Both the position numbers and the translations under genes were made by a program. Below are positions 3,591 through 11,614 of a stretch of DNA of 64,000 nucleotides, one piece after another. Source of the stretch: Centipeda infelix ATCC 43532 (lineage in GTDB: Bacteria > Bacillota > Negativicutes > Selenomonadales > Selenomonadaceae); assembly GCF_000234095.1 (NCBI RefSeq), contig NZ_JH376799.1, positions 52,683-116,682 of the forward strand, read 5' to 3'. The notes below the pieces were generated by a model. The model was given only the letters and a program-made list of their open reading frames with translations. It did not search any database and was not told where the DNA came from. Within the stretch, counting starts at the first letter, position 1; every line of letters starts with the position of its first letter.

Positions 3591-3661
3591 ATCCCACCTC
3601 ATTTTGTCATTTCTATAAATAAATATAGCACAAAGAATTCTTTTCTTCTACTATATCTTAT

Positions 3662-3690
3662 TTGTCACATCCCCATACCTATGCTATAAT
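3662..3690 (+). promoter_or_regulatory. Promoter of the P-type ATPase-like gene
   Basis: -35 TTGTCA (3662-3667), 17-bp spacer, -10 TATAAT (3685-3690). Transcription would start near 3697, ahead of an AGGAG at 3713-3717. Confidence 0.75.
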
Positions 3691-3727
3691 GCCCCTGTAA
3701 CATCTATAGGGCAGGAGCTGAACGTCC

Positions 3728-5086
3728 TTGAAAAAAATGTTTTCTTCGTTCTTTCATTTTATCGCAAGCGTCGTCCTTGCGGCGGGAGCCGCAGGATACT
3801 GGTACATCGCGGGCGGCATCACAATCGAAGCGGCATCTGAAATTTTTCTCGGGGTCTTTCTCGCCGCTTCGCCGCTCCCCTTTATTGTCTCACGCCTGCT
3901 CATTGCACTGCGCATCAAACGCCGTCTGCGTGACTCCGCCATCGTGTGCAGCCGCGTGGGAGCGCTGACGGAGCTGCTGCATGTCGACACGATTGCGTTC
4001 AACCGCAACGGCACACTCACCGAGGGCAACGTCTTCATCTCCGCCCTCGTGCCCGAGGGCATGACACAGGGCTCGCTGTTGGCACTCGCCGCCAGTGCTG
4101 AGCGCGAAGCGGCACACCCCTACGCGCACGCTCTCTACGATACCGCCGTACAGCGCGGTCTCCATCTGCAGCGACACTCTGCCGCACGTGAGACGGAGAG
4201 CTTCGGTGTCGAGGCGCTGATTGCACGCACGCCTGTGCGAGTAGGAAAAAAAGAGTGGCTGCAGGAGGAAAATATTGAAATCAGCGCGGCTCTCCTCACG
4301 CGTGCCGATCAGCTCGCCACGAGCGGTCAGACACCGCTCTTCGTCAGTTCGAGCAAGTACGCACGCGGCATCATCGCCGTCCGTGACGACATACGTGCCG
4401 AGGTGCGGCGTGCCCTGCAGTCACTCAAGGAGCGCGGGCTGTCCCTCATCCTCCTCACAGGTGAGACAAAACGTCTCGCGAACGCAACGGGCAAAGAACT
4501 GAAGATCAGCGAGGTGCGCTCCGATCTCACAGACGCAGACAAGGCACGTGAGATCCGTCTTCTCCAATCGCGCGGCTCCGTCGTCGCGATGGTCGGCGAT
4601 CCTATGTCGGATCAAGCCGCCATGCGTGCGGCAGACATCAGCATCGGCTGCCCATCCTCCTACGAAAAGCCGGTCACCGATGCTCCGGATGAGACACCGC
4701 ACGATCCACTGCACGAGGAACTCCTGCGCGGGCCGAACGGTGATGAATCCGCAAGCGAGATCGAGCCGCTGATGTCACCCGAGGACGCCGCCTACTTCGA
4801 GGCGCAGGCACTCCGCAATCAGGGACACTCCACGAACTTCACCCCAGACATCACACTCGACAGCGAGGGGCTTCCGAGTCTCGTCACCCTCTGGGACACC
4901 TGCAACGCTGCACGTGCACGCGCCAAGCAAAACCGTCTGCTGAGCACGCTCTTCCTCCTCACCTTCACATTGGCGTCCGCAGGTGTCTTCACCGCACTTG
5001 ATGCTGCGATTCTCCCCTATTCATTTGTCGGCGGTGCGCTTGTTCTCCTGCTTATCTTTCTTATTGTGAACGCGCTTCGAAAATGA
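3728..5086 (+). CDS. Degenerate P1B-type ATPase-like membrane protein (probable pseudoenzyme)
   Basis: 452 residues from a TTG start with AGGAG 10 bases upstream; the ATG at 3737 is badly spaced. The order of motifs is that of the C-terminal half of a heavy-metal P-type ATPase: a hydrophobic pair (~8-60), the phosphorylation segment (91-98), the HP dipeptide of the nucleotide domain (130-131), VGKKEWL (172-178), an IAVRDDIR segment (216-223), LLTGE (242-246), DK (271-272), MVGDPMSD (288-295) and a C-terminal hydrophobic pair. Key residues are changed. The DKTGT motif reads FNRNGT, so the phosphorylated Asp is Asn92; the CPC motif reads SPL (48-50); TGD is TGE; GDGxND is GDPMSD. The actuator domain and metal-binding domain are absent, and an acidic stretch (~311-385) is inserted. 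ATP-driven transport is therefore unlikely. It precedes the cyd operon with its own promoter; function unknown. Confidence 0.8.
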   Translation: MKKMFSSFFHFIASVVLAAGAAGYWYIAGGITIEAASEIFLGVFLAASPLPFIVSRLLIALRIKRRLRDSAIVCSRVGALTELLHVDTIAFNRNGTLTEGNVFISALVPEGMTQGSLLALAASAEREAAHPYAHALYDTAVQRGLHLQRHSAARETESFGVEALIARTPVRVGKKEWLQEENIEISAALLTRADQLATSGQTPLFVSSSKYARGIIAVRDDIRAEVRRALQSLKERGLSLILLTGETKRLANATGKELKISEVRSDLTDADKAREIRLLQSRGSVVAMVGDPMSDQAAMRAADISIGCPSSYEKPVTDAPDETPHDPLHEELLRGPNGDESASEIEPLMSPEDAAYFEAQALRNQGHSTNFTPDITLDSEGLPSLVTLWDTCNAARARAKQNRLLSTLFLLTFTLASAGVFTALDAAILPYSFVGGALVLLLIFLIVNALRK

Positions 5087-5132: not shown

Positions 5133-5161
5133 TTGTATTTCATTTTAACCTATGATATAAT
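5133..5161 (+). promoter_or_regulatory. Promoter of the cyd operon
   Basis: -35 TTGTAT (5133-5138), 17-bp spacer, -10 TATAAT (5156-5161), leaving a leader of roughly 80 nt before cydA. No clear Rex palindrome was found around it. Confidence 0.7.
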
Positions 5162-5249: not shown

Positions 5250-6620
5250 ATGGAAGAAGTGCTGCTGTCACGATGGCAGTTTGCAATCACCACCATCTAT
5301 CACTTTCTCTTCGTCCCCGTCACCCTCGGCATGGCGATCTTCGTCGCCCTGCTTGAGACGTGCTACGTAAAGACGAAAAGACCGGAATGGAAAAAGACCT
5401 GCCGAAAGCTACTGCATTTCTTTGGCACGCTGTTTCTCATCAACTTTGCGATGGGTGTTGTCACAGGTCTGGTGCAAGAATTCCAGTTTGGCATGAACTG
5501 GTCGGAGTATTCGCGTTTCATGGGCGATATCTTCGGCGCACCGCTCGCACTCGAGGCACTCACGGCGTTCTTCCTTGAGTCGACGTTCCTCGGCATCTGG
5601 ATGTTCGGTTGGGACAAGCTGTCTGAAAAAGCGCATTGCGCCTGCATCTGGCTTGTCGCCATCGGCAGCAACCTGTCGGCATTCTGGATTCTCGTTGCGA
5701 ACTCGTTCATGCAGCACCCCGTTGGCTACACAATTGCAAACGGACGTGCAGAAATGGCAAGTTTCTTTGAACTTGTAACCAACCACTATATCGTCGGCGA
5801 GCAGTCACACACCCTCTTTGCGGGCATCACAACGGCAGGCTTTGTCGTCATGGCAGTCTCTGCTTGGAAACTGCTCCACGATGAGGAGTCGCGCTACGCA
5901 TTCACACAGGCGATCAAGGCGGGTGCGATCTACACAATCGTCGGTGTCGTCGGTGTCATTATGAGCGGACATTTCCACACGCAGTACCTCGCACAGGCAA
6001 GCCCGATGAAGCTCGCAGCGATGGAGGCACTCTGGGATACGGAGGATCCTGCTCCGTTCGCCGTTCTCGCCTATCCGAACATGGAGAAGGGGCACAACGA
6101 TTTCGAGATCACGATTCCCTATATGTTCACCATCATGGTGCATGACAACATCAAGGGAGAGGTGCGCGGCATCAACGACCTCCAGAAGGAGGCCGTCGAG
6201 AAATTCGGTCCCGGCGACTACCGCCCGCATGTAACGATGCTCTTTTACTCCTTCCGTGCAATGGTCGGAGCCGGCTTCTTCATGGTACTCGTCTCGCTCG
6301 TCGTATTTTACCTCGCGAAAAAGGACAAGCTGTTTACGGCAAAGAAGCTGCTCTACGCCCTCCCGTGGCTGGTCGTCGTTCCCTTTATCGCAAACTCCTG
6401 CGGCTGGATCGTGGCGGAGATGGGACGTCAGCCGTGGCTGGTCGTCGGACTTCAAAAGACGGTGAACGGTGTCTCACCGAATCTCACCTCTGCTGAGATC
6501 ATGATTACAATGATCGGGTTTACGGTGGTCTATCTGCTGCTCCTGATCACGGCACTCTACCTCGCCTTCCGCTTCATCCGCCGCACGCAGATCACACCTG
6601 CCATCGAAGGAGGGAAGTAA
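5250..6620 (+). CDS. cydA: Cytochrome bd quinol oxidase subunit I
   Basis: Subunit I of the membrane cytochrome bd oxidase, which oxidises quinol and reduces O2 to water without pumping protons. The 456 residues start at 5250, where TAGGAGGGG lies 8 bases upstream; the longer frame back to 5133 would run into the promoter. His18 in the first membrane segment (IYHFLFVPVTLGM) matches the haem b595 ligand, and GRQPWLV near the C-terminus is the family signature. The periplasmic Q-loop is short. First gene of cydABDC plus one unknown gene, 2 bases from cydB. It suggests the organism can use or scavenge low oxygen. Confidence 0.97.
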   Translation: MEEVLLSRWQFAITTIYHFLFVPVTLGMAIFVALLETCYVKTKRPEWKKTCRKLLHFFGTLFLINFAMGVVTGLVQEFQFGMNWSEYSRFMGDIFGAPLALEALTAFFLESTFLGIWMFGWDKLSEKAHCACIWLVAIGSNLSAFWILVANSFMQHPVGYTIANGRAEMASFFELVTNHYIVGEQSHTLFAGITTAGFVVMAVSAWKLLHDEESRYAFTQAIKAGAIYTIVGVVGVIMSGHFHTQYLAQASPMKLAAMEALWDTEDPAPFAVLAYPNMEKGHNDFEITIPYMFTIMVHDNIKGEVRGINDLQKEAVEKFGPGDYRPHVTMLFYSFRAMVGAGFFMVLVSLVVFYLAKKDKLFTAKKLLYALPWLVVVPFIANSCGWIVAEMGRQPWLVVGLQKTVNGVSPNLTSAEIMITMIGFTVVYLLLLITALYLAFRFIRRTQITPAIEGGK

Positions 6621-6622
6621 GA

Positions 6623-7639
6623 ATGGACTACAATATTCTCTGGTTTGTGCTCATCGTCGTTCTCTTCACGGGATTCTTCTTCCTGGAGGGATTCGACTAC
6701 GGTGTCGGCACACTTCTCACGCTTCTCTCAAACAGAGAGGAAGACCGCTCCCAGGTGATTCGTGCCATCGGCCCCGTCTGGGACGGCAATGAGGTCTGGA
6801 TGATTACGGCGGGCGGCGCGACCTTCGCGGCATTCCCGCACGTCTATGCAACGATGTTCAGCACGTTCTATCTCGCACTCTTCCTCATGCTGGTTGCGCT
6901 CATCCTGCGCGGTGTCGCATTCGAGTTCCGCCATCAGCGTTCGGATGATGCGTGGCAGCGCCGCTGGTCGTATGCGATTGCCTTTGGCAGTATCGTCCCC
7001 GCATTCCTTTGGGGGGTTGCTGTCACAAATCTGATCGCGGGTCTGCCCATTGGCTCGAATATGGTCTATCAGGGAAATTTCTTTGATCTCCTGACACCAT
7101 ACACAGTGGTTGGCGGTCTGACCTTCGTCGCAGTCTTTGCTTTCCATGGCGCGGCGTTCCTGCGCCTGCGCCTCACGAGCACCTACCTCCTCGACCGTGC
7201 CCGCGTGCTTGGTCTGAAGTTCGGCGTCGCTGCAGCACTTCTCTATGTGCTCTGCATGGTGCTCACATACACGGAGACGGATCTCTATGCCAGCCCGCTT
7301 GCAGCCGGCGCACTCGTCTTCTCGGCGGCAGCATTTGTTGCGGGTCTCGGTGCAATGTATAAGGGAGCACAGCTGCCCGCATTCGTACTCGGCGGCCTTG
7401 CCATCGTCGGTACAACGGTCGGCTTCTTCGCCGGGCTCTTCCCGCGGCTCATGGTCTCAAGCCTCAACCCCGGATGGAGTCTCACGATCTACAATGCGTC
7501 CTCGACGCAGTACACGCTCTCCATCATGACGATTGCGGCGGGCATTCTCGTTCCCGTGGTCCTCGGCTACCAGATCTGGACGTACTACATCTTCCGCAAG
7601 CGTATCTCTCCAAATGATACAGGACATCAGGCGTACTGA
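6623..7639 (+). CDS. cydB: Cytochrome bd quinol oxidase subunit II
   Basis: 338 residues with about eight to nine membrane segments. The N-terminal FFFLEGFDYGVG stretch is typical of CydB, and WDGNEVWMITAGGATFAAFP (within ~50-72) is the conserved region that packs against the haems of CydA. The gene starts 2 bases after cydA, with the AGGAGGG of the cydA tail as ribosome binding site, and ends 5 bases before cydD. No small CydX/CydS-like gene fits between cydB and cydD. Confidence 0.97.
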   Translation: MDYNILWFVLIVVLFTGFFFLEGFDYGVGTLLTLLSNREEDRSQVIRAIGPVWDGNEVWMITAGGATFAAFPHVYATMFSTFYLALFLMLVALILRGVAFEFRHQRSDDAWQRRWSYAIAFGSIVPAFLWGVAVTNLIAGLPIGSNMVYQGNFFDLLTPYTVVGGLTFVAVFAFHGAAFLRLRLTSTYLLDRARVLGLKFGVAAALLYVLCMVLTYTETDLYASPLAAGALVFSAAAFVAGLGAMYKGAQLPAFVLGGLAIVGTTVGFFAGLFPRLMVSSLNPGWSLTIYNASSTQYTLSIMTIAAGILVPVVLGYQIWTYYIFRKRISPNDTGHQAY

Positions 7640-7644
7640 CACAT

Positions 7645-9291
7645 ATGAAAAAAAAGAAGTCCATTTTACGCTCTGCACTGCATACACAGCGAAACATCCT
7701 CCTCGTACGCACGGCGATTGAACTCCTCCACGGAGGTCTGGTTGTCACAGCGGCGTGGAAGACTTCCATCATCGTGAATGCGGTATTCATGGAGCACGGC
7801 GGACCTACCGAAACAGCATCAGATCTTCTGATGCTGTTTTTGTGCGTCCTATCGATGGCTCTCCTGCGCCTCCCGAAGTCTCGCATTGAAGCGCAGCTCT
7901 CCCATCGTCTTCGCCTGTCTGCGCGTACCTCGCTGCACAAGGCGATGCTTCTGCAGGGGCGCGGCTCCGCGGGCGCACTGACGCTAACACTGGAGCGCGT
8001 CGACGCACTCGATCCGTTCTTCCACACGGTACTGCCCACAATGATTGCGGGTGCGGTGCTGATCCCGCTGATTCTCATTGTCACAGCGTTTGCAGACCCA
8101 CTCTCGGCGCTCCTCTTCCTCGTGACGCTGCCGATTGCGCCGTTCCTGCTTTTCCTCATCGGAAAAGCGACACGCCGTGCGAGTGAACGGCAGTGGGACA
8201 AGATGCAGTCGCTCACGGACGGATTCGGCGAACTCGTGCGTGCGGCAATGACGCTCAAGATCTTTCGCCGCATCGATACCGAGGGTGCTCATCTCGCGCG
8301 TATGAGCCACAGCTTTGCCGAGGCATCCCTCTCCGTTCTGCGGCTTGCCTTTGTCTCCGCATTCGCACTTGAGCTGATTACCACCCTCTCGATTGCACTC
8401 ATTGCCGTCTCCATCGGTCTGCGTCTGCTGGAAGGAATGATGTCCTTCCAGCCGGCGTTCTTTGTGCTCATCCTTGCGCCGCTGTTCTATCAGCCGCTGC
8501 GCGAGGGCGGCATCGCATTCCATGCAGCGATGGATGCAAAGACGGCAGAGACTGCGCTCACCCCCTATCTGGATCTCCCTTCCTCCACGGACGGCGCACG
8601 CAGTCAGATCCTCTCGCCGCCCGCTGTGCATACGGAACATCTCTCCTATCGCTACCCACTGACCGAGGAGGAAGTGCTTACGGGGTTAACCCTCTCGTTC
8701 CCTGCGGGAAAATCCACGGTGATTGCAGGGGCGAGCGGCATTGGTAAGTCGACACTGCTCCTCCTGCTCGCGGGGCAGATCACGCCGACCGAGGGAAAGA
8801 TCCTCCTTGCGGACGGCGCAGGCAACGCGAACAATTTTGACCTTGCACATCTCTCGGAGACGACACGCACGCATCTCATCACCTACGTTCCGCAAGAACC
8901 GCATATCTTTACGGCAACCCTCGCGGAGAACGTCAGTCTGTGGCTCGAAAACGCCACTGACGAAGCCGTCACTGCGGCACTTGAGGCAGCGGCACTTGGA
9001 GACTTCCTGCGCGCTCTGCCCGAGGGACTTCGGACACCGCTCGGACAGGGCGGGCAGCCCCTTTCAGCAGGCCAACGTCACCGCCTTGGTCTTGCACGCG
9101 CGTTTTTCCAAAACCGCCCCATTGTCCTCCTCGATGAGGTGACAGCAGGTCTGGACGGGCAAACAGAGGTGCTCGTTATGGATGCGTTGACGCGATTCGC
9201 ACATCATCGCACGCTGATTCTGACATCACATCGTCCCGCACTGATTGCATGGGCGGAGCACGTTATTACATTGGGAGGTGGGGAGCTATGA
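7645..9291 (+). CDS. cydD: Heterodimeric ABC exporter CydD, cytochrome bd assembly
   Basis: 548 residues, about 320 of membrane domain followed by an ATPase domain. Walker A GASGIGKST, Q-loop VPQEPHIF, signature LSAGQRHRLGLARAF and Walker B IVLLDEVTAGLD are all visible. With CydC it exports thiols (cysteine and glutathione in Escherichia coli) and is needed to assemble cytochrome bd haems. The ATG follows cydB by 5 bases without a clear Shine-Dalgarno sequence, suggesting translational coupling. Its last codons overlap cydC by ATGA. Confidence 0.93.
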   Translation: MKKKKSILRSALHTQRNILLVRTAIELLHGGLVVTAAWKTSIIVNAVFMEHGGPTETASDLLMLFLCVLSMALLRLPKSRIEAQLSHRLRLSARTSLHKAMLLQGRGSAGALTLTLERVDALDPFFHTVLPTMIAGAVLIPLILIVTAFADPLSALLFLVTLPIAPFLLFLIGKATRRASERQWDKMQSLTDGFGELVRAAMTLKIFRRIDTEGAHLARMSHSFAEASLSVLRLAFVSAFALELITTLSIALIAVSIGLRLLEGMMSFQPAFFVLILAPLFYQPLREGGIAFHAAMDAKTAETALTPYLDLPSSTDGARSQILSPPAVHTEHLSYRYPLTEEEVLTGLTLSFPAGKSTVIAGASGIGKSTLLLLLAGQITPTEGKILLADGAGNANNFDLAHLSETTRTHLITYVPQEPHIFTATLAENVSLWLENATDEAVTAALEAAALGDFLRALPEGLRTPLGQGGQPLSAGQRHRLGLARAFFQNRPIVLLDEVTAGLDGQTEVLVMDALTRFAHHRTLILTSHRPALIAWAEHVITLGGGEL

Positions 9292-10901
9292 CAGCCGCAC
9301 TCTTTCGTCTGCTCTCCATTGCAGCGCCATCGAAGGCACTGCCCGCACTCCTTGCGGGGGTGCTCGCTGCAGCCTCAGGTATTGCGCTCATCGGTACAGC
9401 TGCGTGGATCATCGCGAGCGCGGCGCTGCAGCCGCCGCTGTCCGCACTTGCGCTTGCAATTACAATGGTACGTGCATGCGGCATCGGTCGCGCGGTCTTT
9501 CGCTATCTCGACCGTCTGCTCTCCCATCGTCTTGCATTCGCCTGTTACGAGGACTTGCAGCAGGCGACCTATCGGCGCTCCGCTGCAGTGATTCCCCTGC
9601 GGGAAGGCAATGTCCGCGAGGGAGAATTTCTGCACGATCTCCTCACGGGCTGCGAGACCCTACGCGACTTCTACCTGCGCACCGTTCCACAACCACTGAT
9701 TGCGGGGCTGCTCACCGCTGTGACCTGCACAGCGCTCCTGCCGCTCAGCTTGTGGGGCGCACTGCTCATCGCATTTCTCTATTTTCTGCATCTCGCCCTC
9801 CCCCATCTCCTGCACGAGGCAGATCTGCGCACGGAGGGCACCGCCTATCGTGAGGTTCTGCTCGACCGCCTCGACGGATGCACTGAACTCGCGGCGGCAG
9901 GTACACTCACTCGGGCGCAGGGGCAACTCGACCGTGCAGCAGAGGATTTTCAGCGCAGGCAGGATGACAAACGCACAAAGCGTGAACGGCTGTTCACCCT
10001 GCTTGATATTCTGCGTGTTGCGGTCTGGATTCTACTGATCGTTCTGCTTACGCCATGCGTCGCAGACAGAATGCTGACGGGTGTACAATACGCTGTCTGG
10101 GTGCTTGTCCTCGAAGCCGTGCTCAGCGAGTACCGCCCCCTGCCCGCCGCAAGTCTGGGCGCAGCGGAGGCTGCACGGGCAGCTGAGACGATTCTTTCCG
10201 CACAGGAAAATTCCTCTGCAAAAAAAATGTCGTTCCCCTCCCCCGTCTTTATTGCAGATGCCCCGCTGATTGCGGCAGAGCATCTTACCTTTTCCTACCA
10301 TGACGGCATTCCGATCCTGCGGAATTTCTCATGTACGATTCGGCGCGGGGAGCACACAGCGATCATCGGTGAGAGCGGTGCAGGCAAGACGACGCTTGCA
10401 AGCCTCCTCCTGCGCCTCTGGGAGCCTGACAGTGGTACAATCTCATATGGAGGAGTATCGCACACCGCCCTTTCTGCAGACACATCACGCGCCCTCTTTG
10501 GAGCCTCCCTGCAGGGAAGTTATCTCTTCAGCACATCGACGCGCGACAACTTCCTGCGTTTGCATGCGGATATGAATGAGAAGCGGATGTGGCATGCACT
10601 TGAGACTGCACAGCTTGCCGATGTGATACGGGCACTTCCTGCGGGACTGGATGAACCTCTGGGTGCAAATGCTGTACGGCTCTCGGGCGGACAGCGCAGC
10701 CGTCTGCTCACCGCGCTTGCCCTTGCCGCCGAGGCAGAGATTCTCTTGCTTGACGAGCCGACGGCAGGGCTGGATGCCACACGCGGGCAGCGATTGATCG
10801 CTGCTATTCTGGAGGAACTCGACGCACGCGACGGTACGCTCATCGTCATCACGCATGACCTTCCCCTTTTAGACCGTATGAAACAGGTGATAGAACTATG
10901 A
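9288..10901 (+). CDS. cydC: Heterodimeric ABC exporter CydC, cytochrome bd assembly
   Basis: Partner of CydD, 537 residues. Start at 9288 is set by GGAGGTGGGG directly upstream and an ATGA overlap with the cydD stop; a longer frame from 9249 would begin inside cydD. Six-helix membrane domain up to ~315, then Walker A GESGAGKTT, signature LSGGQRSRLLTAL, Walker B ILLLDEPTAGLD and H-loop ITHD. Both ATPase sites look intact. Overlaps the next gene by ATGA, so the downstream unknown protein is coupled to it. Confidence 0.93.
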   Translation: MTAALFRLLSIAAPSKALPALLAGVLAAASGIALIGTAAWIIASAALQPPLSALALAITMVRACGIGRAVFRYLDRLLSHRLAFACYEDLQQATYRRSAAVIPLREGNVREGEFLHDLLTGCETLRDFYLRTVPQPLIAGLLTAVTCTALLPLSLWGALLIAFLYFLHLALPHLLHEADLRTEGTAYREVLLDRLDGCTELAAAGTLTRAQGQLDRAAEDFQRRQDDKRTKRERLFTLLDILRVAVWILLIVLLTPCVADRMLTGVQYAVWVLVLEAVLSEYRPLPAASLGAAEAARAAETILSAQENSSAKKMSFPSPVFIADAPLIAAEHLTFSYHDGIPILRNFSCTIRRGEHTAIIGESGAGKTTLASLLLRLWEPDSGTISYGGVSHTALSADTSRALFGASLQGSYLFSTSTRDNFLRLHADMNEKRMWHALETAQLADVIRALPAGLDEPLGANAVRLSGGQRSRLLTALALAAEAEILLLDEPTAGLDATRGQRLIAAILEELDARDGTLIVITHDLPLLDRMKQVIEL

Positions 10902-11614
10902 CACAGGAACACTTTCACGAACTCATCCACATTGTTTTGGATCGCCTCGGTGCGGCAGCCCCGCCGCACGAACTCTTTGCTGGCGGTGTGGAGGACTGGC
11001 ACGCACGCGCGCGCCTTGCCCACTTCCTCGCACAGACCGAGGAGTACCATGCCGAAGCCTTGGAACTCTTTCTGAGCGTCGTCGACGCAGAGCCGAACGA
11101 GGAGCTTGCACAGGATGTCGAGGAAAAAGTCTATGCCATGCAGGGGCTGAGTGCCCTCGAAGCGGCGGACAAGGCAACGCAGGAAGCAGCACTTGAGCAC
11201 ATCAACCTGGCGATCGAATGTGCCGAATCCACGGATTTCCTCTACAAGTACATCCTGCGCGGCGAGCTCTGGGCGGATCGTTGGAACCTCATGCACAAGC
11301 TGCGCATGACCGAGGAAGCGGAAGCGGAGGCAGATGAGCGCATTGCCGCCTTTGACGGCCTTGCGGAGGCGGTGCCGCACAACTCGTATCTCTACTACGG
11401 CTATCGCTTCAAGGCACATCTCGCCGCTGAGCGCGGCGTCGTTCTCATTGCAAAGGACTATATGCACATGGCGATTCACGCGATGGAGATCCCACCCGCC
11501 TATGCGCAGGAGCTTGCGGATGGCTTTGCCGCAACACATGAAAACGCCCCGTGGATTCTGCGCGAAATCGACCGCGCAACACCGAATCCCGAACAACTGC
11601 ATTGGGATATATAG
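10898..11614 (+). CDS. Unknown acidic helical protein, fifth gene of the cyd operon
   Basis: 238 residues, soluble, acidic, and apparently almost all alpha-helical. It has no signal peptide, membrane segment or cysteine-pair motif. Spacing of Ala/Leu/Glu helices (for example EALELFLSVVDAEPNEELAQ) suggests a TPR-like fold, but no repeat consensus can be demonstrated by eye. It is cotranslated with cydC through an ATGA overlap, and a terminator follows 60 bases later, so it is a true member of the operon. A role in bd oxidase assembly or redox control is inference from context only. Confidence 0.8.
   Translation: MTQEHFHELIHIVLDRLGAAAPPHELFAGGVEDWHARARLAHFLAQTEEYHAEALELFLSVVDAEPNEELAQDVEEKVYAMQGLSALEAADKATQEAALEHINLAIECAESTDFLYKYILRGELWADRWNLMHKLRMTEEAEAEADERIAAFDGLAEAVPHNSYLYYGYRFKAHLAAERGVVLIAKDYMHMAIHAMEIPPAYAQELADGFAATHENAPWILREIDRATPNPEQLHWDI

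Follow-up and report, generated by a model that had tools for sequence, protein, structure and literature searches.

A degenerate CopA orthologue retained in Selenomonadaceae, a putative membrane-anchored pseudo-ATPase with a constrained N-domain

Directly upstream of the cytochrome bd genes of Centipeda infelix ATCC 43532 lies a gene whose product resembles the catalytic half of a heavy-metal P-type ATPase and carries alterations at the residues needed for catalysis. This raises the question whether the gene is decaying or is retained for a function other than pumping, and which function this might be. The analysed stretch of 64,000 nucleotides is referred to as the window, the gene product and its relatives as pseudo-pumps, and genera are given as coded groups of the genome set (g numbers).

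The gene and its lost catalytic and metal sites

The open reading frame starts with TTG and encodes 452 residues. This start is backed by a conserved AGGAG motif about 10 nt upstream, and one relative possesses GTG at the same position. Homology to P1B-ATPases spans the P/N cytosolic head and is far above chance (NCBIfam TIGR01525, E = 4e-49; TIGR01494, 91 bits with a cut-off of 62.3; Archaeoglobus CopA aligned with residues 10–313, E = 1e-30). The following features were assigned:

3661–3690, plus strand: promoter-like element TTTGTC-18-TATAAT, kept across the genus (alignment of upstream regions)
3713–3717, plus strand: ribosome binding site AGGAG preceding the TTG start, conserved in the genus
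3728–5086, plus strand: pseudo-P1B-ATPase gene, a CopA orthologue out of service (452 aa; homology, synteny and tree)
3755–3898, plus strand: membrane helices equivalent to M3-M4 of CopA, residues 10–57 (CopA alignment)
3869–3877, plus strand: SPL, residues 48–50, replacing the Cu-binding CPC (motif alignment)
4001–4003, plus strand: N92, replacing the phosphorylated Asp of DKTGT
4040–4387, plus strand: N-domain, residues 105–220, the most conserved part, with E125, H130, G160 and G173 retained
4388–4663, plus strand: second half of the P-domain (P2), residues 221–312, with TGE and GDPMSD (CopA alignment)
4664–4879, plus strand: acidic linker of variable length and weak constraint (composition, dN/dS)
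4934–5083, plus strand: C-terminal helices equivalent to M5-M6 of CopA (CopA alignment)

The phosphorylated Asp is the defining feature of P-type ATPases. In the window protein it is replaced within F91-N92-R93-N94-G95-T96, and S48-P49-L50, T244-G245-E246 and G290-D-P-M-S-D295 are likewise present exactly as the initial annotation had stated. The metal site of M4 (CPC or SPC type) is SPL, and its second Cys is absent from all truncated forms. At the Mg site, the Asn of GDGxND is S, T or A in the genus and mostly R, S, H, K, T or L in other truncated forms. Everything before M3 is missing; the absence of the A-domain, the region with TGE(S), and of the N-terminal helices had been noticed before and is borne out, with the HMA domain and M1-M2 gone as well. 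An acidic insert had also been described. It is present at residues 313–384 (17 D/E vs 3 K/R), its length differs across the family, and it is the least constrained region (dN/dS 0.26).

The pseudo-pumps of the family share no conserved cysteine. As CPC and HMA have been lost too, metal binding is disfavoured, and with it the metal-binding regulator that had been suggested. A metal-chaperone role via cysteines was rejected for want of a conserved cysteine. ATP-driven metal transport by the window protein is predicted to be absent. An AlphaFold2 model of the window protein and eight close orthologues reached a pLDDT of 37.5 and was unusable.

Each of the 14 genus genomes contains one orthologue, and the other 13 share 72–87% identity with the window protein; the records that carry a name belong to oral Selenomonas species and Centipeda periodontii. 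Asn occupies the phosphorylation site in all 14 (13 FNRNGT, one FNRSGT), and the promoter-like element and the ribosome binding site are conserved. The overall dN/dS is 0.13 (pairwise NG86, approximate here with dS near 1). The window gene is a retained pseudoenzyme under strong purifying selection and not a decaying one, as had been proposed.

Descent from a copA locus and occurrence in the family

Selenomonadaceae are bacteria of the gut and mouth. Pseudo-pump relatives lacking the Asp are present in about 22 of 30 genera, and a profile search detected short homologues of 380–460 aa in most genera; none of the 41 truncated homologues possesses the Asp. Among about 100 sampled genomes of other Negativicutes no pseudo-pump was found, and the matches listed there were all full-length apart from one broken CopA. 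Two pseudo-pump copies are disrupted by stops (L116:3627-5387 and L118:3985-5271; G137 and G180), which may reflect decay or assembly errors. In two genomes (L120, G062 of g8; L121, G022 of g10) cydABDC and an intact CopA elsewhere are present and a pseudo-pump is not detectable; g8 and g10 are natural losses that can serve as a control.

The shared N92 held throughout the genus, but four other genera of the family carry syntenic orthologues with an intact DKTGT. Complete CopA proteins (HMA, TGES, CPC, DKTGT, GDGIND) are encoded beside ispE and/or cyd genes in g31, g42 and g9, and in g43 the syntenic copy lies at a contig end with its last part missing. A gene of the CsoR family is found at this locus in g31, g42 and g43, and CopZ in g31 and g9. 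In g31 and g42 ispE adjoins csoR-copA; g43 has csoR-copA and g9 copA-copZ. Furthermore, copZ and cydABDC follow directly downstream of csoR-copA in g31. In a maximum likelihood tree of the P/N region all pseudo-pumps form one clade (100/98), which groups with the intact syntenic CopAs of g9, g42 and g43 (100/99), apart from other CopAs. Synteny and tree thus show that the pseudo-pump descends from the copper pump of a csoR-copA-copZ locus next to ispE and cydABDC. Orthologues with DKTGT had been regarded beforehand as a possible sign of decay; because the pseudo-pump clade is old and constrained, they mark the copA origin instead.

Long degenerate forms of 530–760 aa occupy the same locus in g6, g7, g11, g35, g38 and g41, and also in g5 and g37, while the truncated form is found in g1 and most other genera. 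The gene therefore exists at one locus in intact, half-degraded and minimal form, so that the order of its losses can be read; this offers a testable case in which a domain has outlived its enzyme. The orthologous group has lost its catalytic residues, with a lone exception among the long forms (L102:3344-5287, g41), which keeps the Asp as DRSGT and lacks CPC, TGES and GDGxND. This protein could be an intermediate stage or a reversion. Since DRSGT occurs here without CPC or GDGxND, the metal site may have been lost before the Asp in this line.

Every pseudo-pump genome that was checked encodes an additional intact CopA with DKTGT and CPC (about 810–890 aa where complete), so pumping was redundant where it was lost. 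The six genomes with an intact syntenic CopA possess no other CopA, and their next best P1B match reaches about 300 bits. Transport by this orthologue of the CsoR-linked P1B-1 ATPase CopA would probably have been lost once another CopA was handling copper efflux, a direction of causation that we infer.

Constraint on the N-domain and proposed function

In comparison to CopA, the Cu+-exporting P1B-1 ATPase with CsoR and CopZ that is the direct ancestor, the pseudo-pump shares the synteny, M3–M6, the P/N fold and the Glu, His and Gly residues of the N-domain, whereas the Asp of DKTGT, CPC, the A-domain with TGES, HMA and GDGxND are missing. The strongest constraint has also moved, from the P-domain and transmembrane helices in CopA to the N-domain in the pseudo-pump. 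Within the genus, and with the same approximate dN/dS, the pseudo-pump shows values of 0.030 for the N-domain, 0.119 for the second P half, 0.26 for the linker and 0.19 for the C-terminal helices, in contrast to 0.21 for the N-domain, 0.12–0.13 for the P-domain and 0.07 for the C-terminal helices of functional CopA from the same 14 genomes, one copy of which has an in-frame TGA. The pattern is reversed: among the cytosolic domains, the N-domain shows the weakest constraint in the working CopA and the strongest in the pseudo-pump. This does not apply to every pairwise test; in some pairs within g12 and g3, constraint on the N-domain does not exceed that on P2. Family-wide, mean pairwise identities of pseudo-pumps are 47% (N), 33% (P2) and 29–30% (transmembrane helices), those of CopA 40%, 61% and 70–79%, respectively, which corresponds to N/P2 ratios of 1.43 and 0.65.

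Several residues of the nucleotide site are kept. E125 was found in 33/37 pseudo-pumps, H130 in 34/37, G160 in 37/37 and G173 in 36/37 (Asp 0/37). The window N-domain contains E125, H130-P131 and G160; at the first position of GxG the genus has S158, where 31/37 others have Gly. In P1B N-domains the equivalents of E125, H130, G160 and G173 contact ATP or lie near it (PMC5089723, PMC3203118). ATP binding by isolated P1B N-domains can be weak (PMC5089723), and direct ATP contact by the His of the HP motif is disputed (PMC3203118).

It is somewhat favoured (a probability of roughly 0.55) that the window protein is a membrane-anchored, non-hydrolysing pseudo-ATPase which acts via its N-domain, probably by binding nucleotide and/or a partner. 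At the level of sequence, the metal, phosphorylation and Mg sites are lost together with HMA, M1-M2 and the A-domain, and M3-M4, the P/N cytosolic head and M5-M6 are retained, with strong purifying selection centred on the N-domain. Such a membrane protein would display an N-domain that binds nucleotide without hydrolysis and/or docks a conserved partner, and it might work as a nucleotide-responsive adaptor or regulator. The nucleotide-binding option raised by the initial annotation survives and seems strengthened. Homology-based annotation (TIGR01494, PF00702) would count pseudo-pumps as metal pumps.

The function of the N-domain seems to date back to the working pump. E162, R171, W177, T191, D194 and Q195 are present in 92–100% of pseudo-pumps and in 0–22% of other CopAs; the intact syntenic CopAs L107, L108 and L111 already carry these residues, and E162 and W177 also occur in L105. 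Furthermore, the N-domain of L107 is 49% identical to those of pseudo-pumps and 35% to those of working CopAs, and for its P2 half this is reversed (34% and 59%). Because intact syntenic pumps of three genera carry most signature residues, we infer that the N-domain gained a second task while the pump still worked. The fuller sequence of events, in which nucleotide sensing or partner docking predates the loss and the protein was stripped to a membrane-anchored N-domain receptor when copper export passed to another CopA, is offered tentatively, at slightly less than even odds. If true, the pseudo-pump would be a family-wide nucleotide-sensing pseudoenzyme derived from a P-type ATPase.

We know of no described bacterial P-type ATPase family that lost the Asp and was nevertheless retained. 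PINA, a truncated ATP7B, is a Cu ATPase that is likewise shortened from its N-terminal side; it differs in being an alternative transcript that retains catalytic residues, whereas the pseudo-pumps form an inactive gene family of their own. Among the papers searched, none contains both 'pseudoenzyme' and 'P-type ATPase', and a search by terms of a 2023 review (PMC10654040) returned no class of retained P-type ATPases without the Asp. The eukaryotic TMEM94/ERMA, for which micromolar nucleotide affinity has been reported and catalysis is disputed, resembles the pseudo-pump in its P-type-like architecture and the missing TGES (PMC12134183, PMC13322241). It differs from the pseudo-pump in that it is not a P1B protein, is located in the ER membrane and keeps a candidate Asp417 and an A-like domain.

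Against the nucleotide reading stand S158, the weak ATP binding of isolated P1B N-domains and the disputed His contact; the g12 and g3 pairs and the DRSGT of L102 also count against the main interpretation. Conservation of the N-domain could reflect a protein partner only. The pseudo-pump would then be a membrane-anchored scaffold, its pocket residues being kept for fold stability; E155, E162, R171, W177, T191, D194 and Q195 are indeed conserved outside the classic ATP contacts. Nevertheless, the whole family keeps E125 and H130, whose known roles lie in binding nucleotide and in phosphoryl transfer, and we consider this explanation to have perhaps one chance in five.

A little less probable is that the pseudo-pump regulates the CopA that remains or some other P1B pump, for instance by forming hetero-oligomers or by tying up a partner common to both. 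The domains are of common ancestry, and the second functional CopA accompanies the pseudo-pump in the genomes checked and is absent where the syntenic copA is intact. However, the membrane helices of pseudo-pumps are poorly conserved in comparison to those of CopA, and therefore no conserved membrane interface is suggested. No linkage to the second CopA was seen, and g8 and g10 have that CopA without a pseudo-pump.

The cytochrome bd neighbourhood

Two features of the window belong to the adjoining cytochrome bd genes:

5133–5161, plus strand: separate promoter-like element of cydA, TTGTAT-17-TATAAT, conserved in the upstream alignment
5250–10901, plus strand: cydABDC, adjoining genes carried over from the ancestral copA locus (synteny)

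A regulator or an assembly factor had been suggested from the position next to the bd oxidase genes. In this reading the protein would help to assemble or regulate cytochrome bd and be retained through co-expression with cydABDC. At every genus locus examined the pseudo-pump adjoins cydABDC, and it lies directly upstream of these genes in g1, g39 (most), g29, g3, g44, g4, g38 and g41; g1 and some g3 genomes lost the ispE side and kept the cyd side. However, the linkage goes back to the intact copA locus, cydA is preceded by a conserved promoter-like element of its own, and g8 and g10 have cydA and no pseudo-pump. Nor does the gene always stand next to cydABDC: several genera keep the two at separate loci, and strict co-occurrence with cydAB was not found. 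Because the pseudo-pump persists in near-complete genomes where cydA has no match (G179, G048, G049, G019, G153, G144 and G023), a role specific for cytochrome bd seems unlikely, at about one chance in eight, and the link is mainly historical.

The loss of catalytic motifs and the few disrupted copies (G137, G180) would fit a decaying pseudogene, but this is highly improbable as frames are open in nearly all genomes, omega is 0.07–0.34 for pseudo-pumps across genera, the gene is retained in about 22 of them, and dN/dS already refutes decay for the genus.

The divergent ispE-gntR-glmU-prs block was rejected as a functional link, as it represents housekeeping synteny that is also present where copA is intact. 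Positions 10898–11614 (plus strand) encode a TPR-like protein of 238 aa, which overlaps the end of cydC and has no Pfam or NCBIfam match. Even distant genera of the family share it at 63–66% identity, and where cydABDC is absent it is often found near the pseudo-pump. Its product was considered as a functional partner (near the pseudo-pump in g30, g40, G179 and G180) and rejected; it is best read as the gene following cydC that remained after removal of cydABDC. Multi-[4Fe-4S] ferredoxin-like proteins are encoded between ispE and cydA in g10 (L121:5721-6572), which has no pseudo-pump, and between ispE and the pseudo-pump in g44 (L086:7077-8174).
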